Part shown: in pieces, positions 10,883 to 53,699 of the stretch | How positions within the stretch are numbered: position 1 is the stretch's first letter | Layout: every line of letters begins with the position of its first letter | DNA from: Bacteroidota bacterium | GTDB lineage: Bacteria; Bacteroidota; Bacteroidia; JACPRZ01 | Reading direction: 5' to 3' | DNA length: 64,000 bases | Assembly: GCA_016193485.1 (NCBI GenBank) | Contig: JACPRZ010000024.1 | Span: 1 to 64,000 of the forward strand | Translations under genes and position numbers: made by a program | The notes under the pieces: model-generated | What the model was told of the DNA's origin: nothing | Seen by the model: only the letters and a program-made list of their open reading frames with translations | Database searches by the model: none

Positions 10883-12979
10883 ATGCAACTCTCAATATGG
10901 TTTAAGGTTGTTTTATTCGGATGTTTCTATATTCCGCTGAACGGCTGCCAAAACCAGAAATCGCAAGTTATGATGACATATAAAGAGATTCCTTTGCTTC
11001 GGGGAACTAATGAAATAGTCCGTTTTGATTCCCTTACACCGGATAATGTTCTCCGTGCGGCAGAAATTTCGATACGCAATGCCGATTCGGTCGTAAAGGA
11101 TATTGTTGAATATGGGGGGGGTACATTTAATGAAATCCTGCTTCCGCTCGACAGGGTTTTTAACATCATAAAGCGTCTTTATTTTCCGCTTGACCTGCTG
11201 GTAGAGGTTCACCCTGATTCTGCCGTGCGGGAGGCGCTGGTAAAAGCGAAGCAGCAGGTTAAAACGTGCCAGAACGAATTATTTACCCGCGAAGAACTTT
11301 ACGGTTCGGTAAAAAAATATTCGGTGTCACCGGACGGACAATCGCTCACCGGGTACAAAAAGAAATTTCTTGAGGATATTCTCCTCCAGTTCCGCAGAAG
11401 CGGTATGGAGTTAACTGCAGAAAAGAGAAACCGGTATAAAGAACTTAAAGCGAAAATTGAGGAGTTGGGCACTCAGTATTCCCTGAATTCCGCCAAAGTG
11501 GATACGTTCCTTGAAATATCTGCAAGCGATACTGACGGATTGGATGCTTCATACCTTGAAAGCCGGAAAACCGGTAAGGGAACTTATAAAATCGGATTGG
11601 ATTATCCATCCTTCAGGCCCTTCATGCGGTACTGCAAAAATGAAAACCTGCGCAGGGAGATCTGGCGGCTTTTTGTAAACAGGGCTTATCCCAAAAACGA
11701 AACTTTATTGGACAGCGTTTTATTTTTCAGGGATGAATTGGCCAAATTACTCGGATATAATTCTTATGCGGAGTACAGTTTCGCTGCTAATATGGCCGGT
11801 ACGACAATTGCCGTTTGGGAGTTTGAAAATTCCCTCAGAGAAATGGTATATCCGAAAGGGGAACTTGATGTGAAAAAGTTATCTGAAATAAAATCTGCAT
11901 TTGGTAAAAATAGCGAACTGCTTCAGGAATGGGAAATTTCATTCTTTGAAAATATCCTGAAGGAAAAGGAGTATAATCTTGATGACAGGATTTTACGGGA
12001 ATATTTTGAATTGAATTCAGTTATTAACGGACTCTTCCGGATCACGCAAAAACTGCTCGGTTTGCGTTATGAGGAAATTATCAATCCGAAAGTATGGCAC
12101 CCGGAAGTGAGGGTATTCAATTGCTTTGACGTGGCAACGGGTAAACTGAAAGGACGTTTTTACCTTGACCTTTTTCCAAGAAAGGACAAGTATTCCCATG
12201 CAGCGATGTTTACAATTACCCCGGGAAGAAAGATGGAAAACAATGATTGGGAAATTCCCGAAGCAGCCCTTGTTTGTAACTTTTCGAAACCCGAAGGCGA
12301 TAAACCGTCATTGCTGTATCATGGGGAAGTGGAGACGTTTTTTCATGAATTCGGGCATCTCCTGCACGGCATTGCATCAACTGCAGAACTTGCTTACCAG
12401 AGCGGTCCTGAAGCGTGCATGCTTGATTTTGTTGAGGCGCCTTCGCAGATATGGGAAAACTGGTCCTATCATAAAGAATCACTTGATCTTTTTGCAAAAC
12501 ATTACAAAACCGGTGAGCCGATACCTGCCGGACTGGTACAGAAACTGATCTCCCAAAAACATCTTAACTCAGGTATTGACGCACTTCGCCAGATCTATTA
12601 CGGAACCTTTGCATTGACGCTCCATGACAAATATGTACCCTACGCCAGCGAATCAATCATCGCTATTTCCCACCGCCTCCGCAGGGAAATTACCGGGTTT
12701 ACCCCTCTTCCGGATGACCACTTTGAATGTTCTTTCGGACACCTGATCGGTTATGATGCCGGCTATTATTCCTATATGTGGTCAAAAGTTTATGCGCAGG
12801 ATATGTGGTCGGTATTTGAGGAGAAGGGTCCACTGAATCCTGCGACAGGTGAATTATACCGCGAAAAAATTCTTGCCCCGGGGGGGAGCGCTCATCCGCT
12901 TGAACTGGTAAAGACCTTCCTCGGACGTAAACCGGATAATAAAGCGCTTTTAAAAGAACTCGGACTTGAGGTGGAGTGA
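10883..12979 (+). CDS. M3 family zinc metallopeptidase (oligopeptidase/Dcp-like), predicted lipoprotein
   Basis: 'VETFFHEFGHLLHGIAS' zinc motif, 'ILAPGGSAHPLELVKTFLGRKPD', lipobox-like 'IPLNGC'. Confidence 0.9.
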   Translation: MQLSIWFKVVLFGCFYIPLNGCQNQKSQVMMTYKEIPLLRGTNEIVRFDSLTPDNVLRAAEISIRNADSVVKDIVEYGGGTFNEILLPLDRVFNIIKRLYFPLDLLVEVHPDSAVREALVKAKQQVKTCQNELFTREELYGSVKKYSVSPDGQSLTGYKKKFLEDILLQFRRSGMELTAEKRNRYKELKAKIEELGTQYSLNSAKVDTFLEISASDTDGLDASYLESRKTGKGTYKIGLDYPSFRPFMRYCKNENLRREIWRLFVNRAYPKNETLLDSVLFFRDELAKLLGYNSYAEYSFAANMAGTTIAVWEFENSLREMVYPKGELDVKKLSEIKSAFGKNSELLQEWEISFFENILKEKEYNLDDRILREYFELNSVINGLFRITQKLLGLRYEEIINPKVWHPEVRVFNCFDVATGKLKGRFYLDLFPRKDKYSHAAMFTITPGRKMENNDWEIPEAALVCNFSKPEGDKPSLLYHGEVETFFHEFGHLLHGIASTAELAYQSGPEACMLDFVEAPSQIWENWSYHKESLDLFAKHYKTGEPIPAGLVQKLISQKHLNSGIDALRQIYYGTFALTLHDKYVPYASESIIAISHRLRREITGFTPLPDDHFECSFGHLIGYDAGYYSYMWSKVYAQDMWSVFEEKGPLNPATGELYREKILAPGGSAHPLELVKTFLGRKPDNKALLKELGLEVE

Positions 12980-12980
12980 A

Positions 12981-15278
12981 ATGAAATTTTTTAGCATTTA
13001 CCGTTCATTGTTTCTTCTCATTTTATTCATCTTCTTTTTTCTTCGTTCTTCCGGAAACCCAAACGGGACAGAAGATGTTTTTAACCGGCAGACAGATTCC
13101 CTTGAAAAACTCATCCCTGTTATCCTTGTTGATACTCAGAAATTTGAATTACTCGATAAACTGAGCAGGTTATTTAAGCAGAGGGATCCCTCCAAAGCAC
13201 TTCATTATGCAACATTATCCATGGAAGTCGCACAGAAAACGGGGTTTAAAAATTACATCGCGACAAGTTACCTGAGAATAGGGGTGCTCCTGCATAACAA
13301 AGGTGAATTCAATAAAGCTCTTTCATACCACCGGAAGGCAGCCCTGCTATACAAGGATTACTGGCCTTTACCAGGGTTTGCAAATTCCATCCACAATATC
13401 GGTCTGGTTTACGATTATATGGGTAATTACAACCAGGCAATCCGGTTTTACCTGCTCGCATTAAAATTAAAGGAGGCATCAGATCATCATGACAAAAATG
13501 ATTTAGCCCTGACAATGAATAATCTCGGACTTGTTTTCTTTTATGTGAACAGTTTTGATAAAGCCCTTGAATACCACAATAAAACATTACAGATCAGGAT
13601 CGAAAAAGGTGACAGCAACGGAATGGGTTCAGCGCATTGCAATATCGGAATTGTCTATGGTGCCAGGGGAGATTATGATAATGCGTTGGAGCATTTTACC
13701 AAAGCGTTATCCTGCCTGGAAAAAAAAGGAGACAGAAAATTCCTGGCTAATATTCTTGCCAACATATCAAAAGTATATACGGCTAAAAAAGATTTTTCTA
13801 ACAGCATTGACTTTATTACACGGGCATTTTACCTGTATAAGTCAATGGATGACCCGTACGGTATGGCAGGTGCGTTGAACACACTCGGTGGGCTGTATGT
13901 ACGGTCAGGTAATTTAGACCTGGCTGATAGTTCGTATTCCGATGCATTGATTATGGGACAGAAAATCGGTGCGAAGGAAAAAATAAAAGATAGTTATGAG
14001 GGGCTAACAGAAATTTTCAAACTGAAAAAAAATTATTTCCGTGCATACGAAATGATCTGCAGGTTATCAGAAATAAAAGACACCATTCTGAATGAACAAA
14101 TGTCAAAACAAATTACCGAGATGCAGACAAAATATGAAACTGAAAAGAAGAAAAAAGAGATAGCACTGCAGAAGGCCGAGATAGGAAAAAAGGAAGCAGT
14201 CATAAATCAGCAAAATATTCAAAGGATGGCATTGGGTGCAGGTATTCTCCTGATGGTAATATTAGCAACAGTAATTTACAAGGCCTACCACAGCAAAAAG
14301 AAAACGAATGTAATCATAACGGCACAGAAACAGGAAGTTGAATCCCAGAAGAAACTTATTGAGGAGAAAAACAATAATATCACGGAAAGTATTGAATACG
14401 CGGGATACATTCAAAAAGCTGTTTTACCGGAAGATGAGGAGTTCAGGTCGTTTTTTCCGGATTCTTTCATTTTGTACCGGCCAAGAGATATAGTGAGCGG
14501 AGATTTTTATTGGATAGCACAGCCCCCCCAACCCCCCGAAGGGGGGATTTATTATTCTCAAACCCCTTCTGTCAAAGGTCATTTGGGCTTTGCTTCTCAG
14601 AACCCCCCTTCGGGGGGCAGGGGGGCCGTGCTTCTTGCCGTTTGCGACTGCACTGGTCATGGCGTACCGGGCGCTTTCATGAGCATGCTTTGCACGGCAC
14701 TCCTCAATGAAACGGTGAACGACAAGGGCATTACGGAACCCGATAAAATATTGGAGAATGTGCGATCGGGGATCATTGCCGCATTAAAACAGAAAGGCAG
14801 AAGGGGAGAGGCAAAAGACGGAATGGATGCCGTATTGATTAAAATGGCAAGACCAAATTCAGAAGGAGGATTGCCGGTATTGGAAATTGCTGCGGCAAAT
14901 AATCCGTGTTATATCGTGAGTAACGGAGTACTGAGTGAATACAAACCTGACAGGTTTCCTGTTGGTGTTTACGAAGGGGAGATGAGCCCGTTCACATTGC
15001 AGAAAACAACCCTCAATCCGGGTGATATGCTATACGCCATCTCCGATGGCTTAGAAGACCAGTTAGGCGGAAGCCCCCCTCTATCCCCCCAAAGGGGGGA
15101 AATGAAAACCCCATTTTATGGTAAAAAGTTCAAGTCATCCCGTTTGAAGGAACTTCTTCAATCAATTTCATCCAGGCAAGTAGCGGAACAAAAACAAATT
15201 CTTGAAAAAACACTGGAAGAATGGAAAGGTGCCGGTGAACAGACCGATGATATTAGCGTCATTGGCATACGTATATGA
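12981..15278 (+). CDS. TPR-repeat membrane protein with C-terminal SpoIIE/PP2C-type serine phosphatase domain
   Basis: TPRs, TM segment, coiled coil, 'YRPRDIVSGDFYWIAQ', 'VLLAVCDCTGHGVPGAFMSML', 'AISDGLEDQLGG', 'QTDDISVIGIRI'. Start 12981 preferred over 12966. Confidence 0.9.
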   Translation: MKFFSIYRSLFLLILFIFFFLRSSGNPNGTEDVFNRQTDSLEKLIPVILVDTQKFELLDKLSRLFKQRDPSKALHYATLSMEVAQKTGFKNYIATSYLRIGVLLHNKGEFNKALSYHRKAALLYKDYWPLPGFANSIHNIGLVYDYMGNYNQAIRFYLLALKLKEASDHHDKNDLALTMNNLGLVFFYVNSFDKALEYHNKTLQIRIEKGDSNGMGSAHCNIGIVYGARGDYDNALEHFTKALSCLEKKGDRKFLANILANISKVYTAKKDFSNSIDFITRAFYLYKSMDDPYGMAGALNTLGGLYVRSGNLDLADSSYSDALIMGQKIGAKEKIKDSYEGLTEIFKLKKNYFRAYEMICRLSEIKDTILNEQMSKQITEMQTKYETEKKKKEIALQKAEIGKKEAVINQQNIQRMALGAGILLMVILATVIYKAYHSKKKTNVIITAQKQEVESQKKLIEEKNNNITESIEYAGYIQKAVLPEDEEFRSFFPDSFILYRPRDIVSGDFYWIAQPPQPPEGGIYYSQTPSVKGHLGFASQNPPSGGRGAVLLAVCDCTGHGVPGAFMSMLCTALLNETVNDKGITEPDKILENVRSGIIAALKQKGRRGEAKDGMDAVLIKMARPNSEGGLPVLEIAAANNPCYIVSNGVLSEYKPDRFPVGVYEGEMSPFTLQKTTLNPGDMLYAISDGLEDQLGGSPPLSPQRGEMKTPFYGKKFKSSRLKELLQSISSRQVAEQKQILEKTLEEWKGAGEQTDDISVIGIRI
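14522..14627. repeat. ~106-bp element with G/C-rich terminal inverted repeats inside the SpoIIE domain
   Basis: GCCCCCCCAACCCCCCGAAGGGGGG ... CCCCCCTTCGGGGGGCAGGGGGGC. Encodes PPQPPEGGIYYSQTPSVKGHLGFASQNPPSGGRG between DFYWIAQ and AVLLAVCDCTGHG. Confidence 0.85.
15085..15099. repeat. CCCCCCAAAGGGGGG palindrome inside the SpoIIE domain
   Basis: Encodes part of 'SPPLSPQRGEMKTPFYG' between DQLGG and KKFKSSRLKELL. Confidence 0.75.
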
Positions 15279-15319
15279 ATTAATATATTTCATGTTTTGA
15301 GCAATGAATAGGATAAAAA

Positions 15320-15351
15320 CATCCTGACTGACCGAAGGGAGCGTCAGGATG
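15320..15351. repeat. Inverted repeat, 9-bp perfect arms
   Basis: CATCCTGAC tgaccgaagggagc GTCAGGATG. Confidence 0.8.
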
Positions 15352-15380
15352 ATGTAACGGTTATTGGAATTAGAGTATAA
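15339..15380 (+). pseudogene. Vestigial second SpoIIE-phosphatase 3' end
   Basis: In-frame ERQDDVTVIGIRV* 60-100 nt after the intact gene's own ...EQTDDISVIGIRI*. Confidence 0.5.
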
Positions 15381-15443
15381 AATTTTCCCGACACGTCTCT
15401 TGTCGTTGCACTTTTCGTATTTTCGTAAATAATTTATTTTTCG

Positions 15444-52706: not shown

Positions 52707-52748
52707 TATTGTTTTAAGAATCAGTAAATCATATTATACCTATAAGCC

Positions 52749-53699
52749 ATGAAAACAAATGTTAACTATTCGCTATTCGCTATTTTCTTTTTGTATTTCC
52801 TTATTCCCCCCTTCGGGGGGATAATAGGGGGACTGTTTGCGCAGCAGAACACCCTCTACAGCCAGTACATGTTCAACCTATTTGCCATTAATCCCGGTTA
52901 TGCCGGCAGCAGGCAGTCAACCTGCGGGGTGCTGCTCTACCGCAACCAGTGGGTTGGGATGGACGGTGCGCCACAGGTGGAGACCTTCAGTTTGCACACT
53001 CCTTTTCAGGGGAAAAGGGTTGCGCTCGGATTAAATGCCTTTAATGACAATATCGGTCCGTCAAATAAAATGGGATTCTTCGGCACCTATGCGTACCACC
53101 TTCCTCTGCCGCTCGGAAAACTTTCCATGGCGCTGAGAGCCGGTATATACCGGTATAAATTTTACAACCAAAAACTTGATTACAAGGATAAATCCGATCC
53201 TGCCGGAAATGTAGAAGATAATTTTTTAATACCCGGCTTTGATTTCGGTTTGTATTACTACAACAAAACCCTTTATGCAGGAGTGGCAGTGATGCACATT
53301 TCAAATAACCAGATAGGGTTTAAAAATGATGACTACCTTTATTCAGGCCTTACACGCCAGTTTATCGCTATTGCCGGCAAGGCGTTTGTGGTCAATGAAA
53401 AAGTAGTGCTGAAACCGTCCGCCAATCTGAAATTCGTTGACGGATTGCCTCTCAATGGCGATCTGAACATGAGTTGCCTTTTCCGGAAAATGTATTGGAT
53501 TGGCGTTTCTTACCGGTCATCAAAAGATGTGATTATTATTGCTGAAGTCAATTTCACTGATTTTCTAAGGGCAGGGTATGCCTATGATGTGGGTTTGAGC
53601 GGACTAAAAAAATATAATAACGGTTCCCATGAAATCTTTATCGGGTTTGATTTCGGTATTCCACGGGAAAAAACCGTTGCCTCGCCAAGGTATTTATAA
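52749..53699 (+). CDS. PorP/SprF family type IX secretion system membrane protein
   Basis: 'QQNTLYSQYMFNLFAINPGYAGSRQSTCGVLLYRNQWVGMDGAPQVETFSLHTPFQGKRVALGLNAFND'. Confidence 0.92.
   Translation: MKTNVNYSLFAIFFLYFLIPPFGGIIGGLFAQQNTLYSQYMFNLFAINPGYAGSRQSTCGVLLYRNQWVGMDGAPQVETFSLHTPFQGKRVALGLNAFNDNIGPSNKMGFFGTYAYHLPLPLGKLSMALRAGIYRYKFYNQKLDYKDKSDPAGNVEDNFLIPGFDFGLYYYNKTLYAGVAVMHISNNQIGFKNDDYLYSGLTRQFIAIAGKAFVVNEKVVLKPSANLKFVDGLPLNGDLNMSCLFRKMYWIGVSYRSSKDVIIIAEVNFTDFLRAGYAYDVGLSGLKKYNNGSHEIFIGFDFGIPREKTVASPRYL
52806..52820. repeat. CCCCCCTTCGGGGGG palindrome inside the signal-peptide region of the PorP/SprF gene
   Basis: Encodes IPPFGG; preceded by tandem CTATTCG heptamers (about 52765-52785). 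Confidence 0.8.

Follow-up and report, generated by a model that had tools for sequence, protein, structure and literature searches.

An in-frame palindromic insertion in a SpoIIE phosphatase gene, probably a nuclease-less member of a DUF559 element family

The palindromic block and its SpoIIE loop

The window, by which we mean the whole 64,000-nt stretch of DNA analysed here, contains a gene whose SpoIIE phosphatase domain (PF07228, E 9.5e-17) is interrupted by two palindromes, inverted relative to one another, around a short core (Table 1). The block remains open in the frame of the gene, lies between GDFYWIA and AVLLAVCDCTGHG, and adds about 35 residues to the protein. A first-pass annotation of this DNA had described two inverted C6-GAA/TTC-G6 palindromes flanking a core, in frame within the SpoIIE domain, and this anatomy is indeed present, although the segment between the repeats measures 53-56 bp and not the 57 bp given at that time. 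A single strand of the block folds with z = -4.4. The repeat family is strongly enriched, with eight occurrences of CCCCCNNNNGGGGG in the window against 0.08 expected, and 51 of CCCCCNAAGGGGG in the 4.0-Mb genome against one for the reversed control. An Rfam search of positions 12900-15400 returned no intron RNA structure and only a sub-threshold MIR9486 match caused by the inverted repeat, which rules out a self-splicing (group I or II) intron or a known RNA. The phosphatase of the window is likely to be still functional with the insert in place.

Table 1. Features of the insertion, its host gene and two single palindromes in the window
Feature	Positions	Strand	Sequence, peptide or basis
Host gene, encoding a 765-aa TPR-repeat protein that ends in a SpoIIE/PP2C phosphatase domain	12981..15278	+	ORF and domain search
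5' target side, directly before the insert	14499..14519	+	phosphatase codons GDFYWIA
Left element end	14522..14547	+	reads GCCCCCCCAACCCCCCGAAGGGGGGA; outer tag GCCCCCCCAA, then hairpin CCCCCCGAAGGGGGG; peptide Q-PPQPPEGG
Core type A, 53 bp, without nuclease	14548..14600	+	
Right element end, inverted copy	14601..14626	-	reads AACCCCCCTTCGGGGGGCAGGGGGGC; GCCCCCCTGCCCCCCGAAGGGGGGTT on minus strand; plus-strand peptide QNPPSGGRG
3' target side, where the phosphatase domain resumes	14625..14663	+	codons for A-VLLAVCDCTGHG
Further single palindrome of this family, also in frame in the host gene	15073..15101	+	GGSPPLSPQRGEM
Single palindrome of this family, in frame, within the signal peptide encoded by ORF 52746-53696	52804..52834	-	MKTNVNYSLFAIFFLYFLI-PPFGGIIGGLFAQQ

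The genome (G000; 4.0 Mb in 72 contigs, an incomplete assembly with no close relatives in the sets searched) encodes around 40 SpoIIE-type phosphatase paralogues, an unusual expansion for a single 4-Mb Bacteroidota-like genome. The spacing from GDFYW to DCTGHG is canonical (24-25 residues) in 21 of the 40, while the remainder are longer at the same point; the clean empty site for which the earlier annotation had called is thus available in 21 paralogues of the same genome. The loop inserts are of several unrelated kinds, at least five. A C6 element with the 53-bp core is found in the window gene, L022, L039 and L040, C6 ends enclose a different core in L020 and L036, and almost no core is left between them in L038. 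Further inserts consist of other palindromes (PPSPEREGG; PPLLDKERGAGG), a KIENGK..FSSS element and the insert of L031, described below. With at least five unrelated types of insert in one loop, insertion must have recurred. The 105-nt mini-element is present in four full copies in the genome, every one of them in the SpoIIE loop, and its type A core is confined to the window gene and three other SpoIIE paralogues. The search for inverse-paired palindromes that had been proposed for the genome yielded nine paired C6 elements, and all nine (9/9) lie in the SpoIIE loop.

These inserts are far more alike than the genes that carry them. The insert DNA of the window is 90-94% identical to that of L039, L022 and L040, whereas the flanks on either side are only 63-71% identical; taken over all 105 nt, identity to these three copies is 89-93%. 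In a tree of 39 phosphatase domains from which the inserts had been removed, the type of insert must have changed 12 times or more, and sister genes differ in their inserts (the window gene and L048, as well as two genes in L038). This contrast in identity, the number of changes and the discordant sisters together indicate that insertion, or an exchange of inserts, followed the divergence of the paralogues, i.e., that the inserts spread recently between diverged paralogues. It had been proposed that the same peptide encoded by unrelated DNA would betray an ancient protein loop; no such case was found, the DNA being the conserved part (90-94% against 63-71% in the flanks), and the ancient loop is ruled out by this comparison and by the empty paralogues. 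The exact C6 palindrome is absent from 29 class-level relatives, all of which are genomes of other families. The description of the window block as a mobile palindromic element, lying in frame within a protein-coding gene, is right.

DUF559 nucleases between hairpin ends

A complete DUF559 domain (PF04480, E 3e-35) is inserted in the host frame between the same two palindromes, and at the same point of the loop, in L031 (C56:42043-42479). A second full copy on contig C59 is identical to it at 388 of 406 DNA positions (95.6%), compared with 181 of 276 in the 3' flank; contigs C24 and C59 both terminate within the repeated DUF559 element. The DUF559 profile matches the solved DUF559 protein 3hrl with E 1.6e-29 and the homing endonuclease I-Bth0305I (3r3p) with E 1.6e-4. 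In an AlphaFold2 model of the L031 domain pair, the nuclease is predicted with confidence (pLDDT mostly >90) and is connected through disordered linkers encoded by the palindromes, and a Foldseek search with the nuclease gave TM scores of 0.90 to 3hrl and 0.69 to 3r3p; no insertion geometry is claimed from this model because the N-terminal strand of the phosphatase is poorly predicted. D..ExDG..H is invariant among the DUF559 copies of the genome. The EDxHD/Vsr-like fold and its active-site residues are properties of the full parent element and do not apply to the window copy. Likewise, a DUF559 ORF between inverted GC-rich palindromic ends is found in the full paralogous copies, while only the ends and the site are present in the window copy.

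Given the full DUF559 element between the same palindromes and its second, near-identical copy, the window element is best read as a nuclease-less derivative, a putative non-autonomous member of the DUF559 element family. The mini core has in common with the nuclease element only its first and last few bases, and its probable origin by internal deletion is deduced from the ends and the site; no intermediate was seen. The parallel to Rickettsia palindromic elements drawn in the first-pass annotation holds for the palindrome in frame at a tolerated site of a coding gene, but it missed the nuclease parent, a full DUF559 paralogue at the same site. No relative of this DUF559 was found in the viral contigs searched, on which ground a phage origin was rejected.

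The same arrangement recurs elsewhere. There are eleven DUF559 matches in the genome, including the two SpoIIE copies and a few fragments, and inverted palindromes flank the majority of them. An HsdR and a CaiB/BaiF CoA transferase also contain in-frame copies. In the phylum sample, DUF559 is present in 78 of 148 genomes. Across 79 distinct loci, GC-rich hairpins were located within 100 nt on the upstream side at 38/76 and on the downstream side at 45/77, whereas 2.9% of 200-nt windows 500-1500 nt away contain one; these figures are underestimates as the 7-bp stem threshold misses the 6-bp C6 hairpins. The left end of an element resembles its right end (similarity score 17.1, compared with 9.2 for shuffled partners), and in 15 of 17 cases an end is more similar to its own partner than to other ends in the same genome. 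Terminators could account for some of the downstream hairpins, however, they leave both the upstream hairpins and the mutual likeness of the two ends unexplained and are thus insufficient. The C6 ends can be aligned with the element ends of RecG, LeuRS, MetH, HsdR and CaiB, each with an outer C-rich tag followed by a C-rich/G-rich hairpin. A single-protein scan of genome contigs gave 11 DUF559 loci from several phyla, and hairpins also flank loci of Cloacimonadota and Geobacter on both sides and of Nomurabacteria, where they are clear on one side. The palindrome-bounded kind of DUF559 is widespread. In a stand-alone DUF559 gene of this genome (L098, G000:C15:19441-19758), the palindromic ends are bordered on either side by TGTRACCCTTGTGAA, possibly a target duplication at the end of a gene. 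No such repeat was found at L101 or in the RecG and LeuRS cases, so that target-site duplication was left unused as a criterion.

In-frame DUF559 domains in recognisable hosts were read at around 24 loci, some of which do not contain the whole gene, and the identities of ten hosts were checked with NCBIfam and Pfam. The hosts comprise LeuRS (in the editing domain, with a second site before STMPGWAGSSWYW), RecG, PheT, MetH, HsdR, HsdM, CaiB and a peptidase, together with other methylases named from reading alone. The MetH insertion site is identical in three genera, and in Bacteroidota genomes the host gene carrying DUF559 is often the sole copy. Within one family of 14 genomes, RecG is empty in 12 (about 704 aa) and filled in two (853 and 869 aa) with no second RecG; two codons are replaced at the junction. 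Three genomes, including one that is a single complete contig, have a LeuRS filled at site a, again with no second LeuRS match, and empty orthologues were found for both RecG and LeuRS. The filled proteins are presumably functional despite the additional domain. The embedded DUF559 domains are under purifying selection (dN/dS 0.06-0.15). A Pfam search of the in-frame carriers found only DUF559 and split host domains, with no Hint or protein-splicing domain; an intein is ruled out by this absence, and the window insert has only about 35 residues. In a DUF559 tree of 111 columns, in which the deep forks are weak, the in-frame copies cluster, with the stand-alone label requiring 5 changes as opposed to 21.8 when shuffled. 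Inserts from SpoIIE, MetH and a peptidase group together, those from LeuRS, RecG and CaiB fall in a neighbouring clade, and one clade is concentrated in restriction-modification proteins.

A second LeuRS site, site b, holds the full element in G106, G164 and G013 and is unsplit in other genomes, while in G125, a member of the family of G106 and G164, it contains AGCCTCACCTAAATCCTCTCCAAAGGAGAGGAC..CTCCCTCTCCTTTGGAGAGGGTCGGGGTGAGGC in frame without a nuclease. This compound palindrome is an independent parallel that repeats the full, gutted and empty pattern of the window gene. The LeuRS of G148 (L268) has at site b an insert of about 110 aa that is not DUF559, lacks palindromes and shows a weak, sub-cutoff match to REase_MTES_1575. 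Within one family, LeuRS genes without DUF559 (L197, L198, L200, L201 and L207) carry other short, repeat-derived insertions in the same loop of the editing domain.

Spread of the elements and competing explanations

We consider it probable (roughly 0.65) that the window block is a nuclease-less member of a mobile DUF559 family with hairpin ends, placed in the host frame and spreading by homing. Each element of this family consists of a DUF559 nuclease gene (Vsr-like PD-(D/E)XK fold) between inverted, REP-like, GC-rich hairpin ends, and in specialised intragenic lineages the whole element is open in the host frame. The product is then one polypeptide of host protein, palindrome-encoded Pro/Gly-rich linkers and nuclease, with no sign of splicing. 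The nuclease would cut host-gene sequence that lacks the insert, and repair templated by a filled copy would write the element in, i.e., homing, with short co-conversion of the flanking codons. Copies without a nuclease, such as that of the window, may spread by the same repair using the nuclease of the full copies at L031 or C59, and the host would survive because the element sits in a surface loop.

We infer that homing is the best supported mechanism from the fidelity to one site, the spread among homologous sites, the relation to a homing enzyme and the raised synonymous identity of the flanks. Over the first five codons beside the insert, synonymous identity is 0.82 among C6 carriers against 0.58 between a carrier and another paralogue, and it fades beyond 10 codons. 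This co-conversion signal (22/500 in a permutation over all inserts) is suggestive only, as shared ancestry was not removed from the comparison. For the inserts of LeuRS, MetH and RecG, the long-term divergence of which is host-like, vertical inheritance with rare gain and loss also fits.

An ordinary REP or REPIN moved by a RAYT (TnpA-REP, an HUH tyrosine transposase) would make the window block a REPIN that landed in frame by chance and DUF559 a passenger between two REPs. Two inverted palindromes around a short core, at about 106 bp, are the anatomy of a REP dimer, dimers within ORFs are known (PMC3733652), there are seven Y1_Tnp matches in the genome, and single copies are scattered over unrelated sites. 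The resemblance to REPIN/RAYT systems extends to non-autonomous copies and a palindrome-flanked gene as the likely mover (PMC3116915), however, here that gene encodes a DUF559/Vsr-like nuclease instead of an HUH tyrosine transposase and insertion is into conserved coding loops. Moreover, the palindromes beside the Y1_Tnp genes, the RAYT-type genes of this genome, differ from C6, and no Y1_Tnp match was found in several carriers, namely G057 (a single contig with the LeuRS insert), G110, G164, G156 and G032. RAYT mobilisation was rejected on these two grounds. Matching ends around DUF559 across many genes and phyla would not be expected of a passenger, and neither would purifying selection; we regard this explanation as unlikely.

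Improbable, too, is a single ancient insertion in the SpoIIE loop that was later reshuffled by ordinary ectopic gene conversion, with the nuclease uninvolved. All paired copies are in one loop of one gene family, ectopic recombination among some 40 paralogues of one genome is plausible, and similarity beside the insert is raised, but the conversion tracts would need to end almost exactly at the limits of the insert. Neither the presence of at least five unrelated types in the same loop nor the recurrence of the full, mini and empty pattern in LeuRS across genomes would be expected from it. Very improbable is a spread by selection of inserts domesticated for the benefit of the host (for instance DUF559 as a defence or regulatory domain joined to restriction-modification, repair and synthetase proteins, palindromes as mRNA structure), for although the embedded nucleases are under purifying selection, persist for long in some lineages and include a clade concentrated in restriction-modification proteins, presence within families is patchy (RecG in 2 of 14 genomes), the hosts are unrelated, gutted copies exist, and one DUF559 lineage hopped among MetH, SpoIIE and a peptidase.

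Known systems and single palindromes

Rickettsia elements and intragenic REP dimers (CGTC/GTAG) are palindromic, dispersed and in frame in genes that include repair genes and tRNA synthetases, and the dimers encode 20-30 residues (PMC3733652). No association of CGTC repeats with transposase genes was found in a survey of 2013, and no nuclease parent was described for these elements (PMC3733652), whereas the C6 element has a parent in which the same ends enclose DUF559; paired C6 copies also keep to one site, unlike the Rickettsia and CGTC repeats. A DUF559 gene has been placed in the EDxHD homing family (PMC9403480). I-Bth0305I, of the EDxHD/Vsr-like family, resembles DUF559 in profile and structure but carries the label of a mobile-intron protein in the PDB (3r3p). 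ShiLan, a homing insertion that does not splice, lies in a phage methylase, leaves the host gene open and hides an out-of-frame HNH enzyme (PMC11855218). The elements described here differ from both in the nuclease being in the host frame, the palindromic ends, the bacterial housekeeping genes and the nuclease-less derivatives. Like inteins, they are in-frame insertions that carry a nuclease and occupy conserved positions in conserved proteins, but they lack the protein-splicing domain. In the titles and passages of the open-access literature that were examined, DUF559 was not linked to palindromic repeats or to in-frame insertion in housekeeping genes.

Tentatively, these elements may form an undescribed class of mobile element, with REP-like ends and a DUF559 homing nuclease, lying in frame and unspliced in conserved or essential genes and decaying to short palindrome pairs, which could explain the origin and spread of intragenic palindromes without a transposase such as the CGTC REPs and the Rickettsia elements. 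How palindromic repeats without a transposase spread, and why they are found in frame in working genes, has been a question since the Rickettsia elements. A nuclease parent with full, gutted and empty versions of one site makes this spread testable by cleavage and conversion assays. If true, a homing nuclease could persist unspliced in essential proteins by means of tolerated loops and palindrome-encoded linkers. It would also give a biological role to DUF559, a very common 'domain of unknown function', and explain why databases contain many oddly long versions of LeuRS, RecG, MetH and HsdR.

Single palindromes at unrelated sites, many of them in signal peptides, mean that something besides homing occurs, and a second, non-homing route is needed for them. 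About 12 single C6 palindromes are in frame in signal peptides, after the hydrophobic region and before the cleavage site or lipobox (the window copy in Table 1, L001, L005, L014, L015, L016, L025, L027, L029, L030, L032, L033 and L034), as in MKKTKLLLVTAIVAVFFF-PPFGGMKGGCQ. Single palindromes seem to favour signal peptides as a tolerated place to land. A small GIY-YIG nuclease gene (L242, G000:C2:46497-46706) is also located between inverted palindromes (CCTGCCTGCCGGCAGGCAGG), hinting that other nuclease families may share the palindrome-flanked arrangement.
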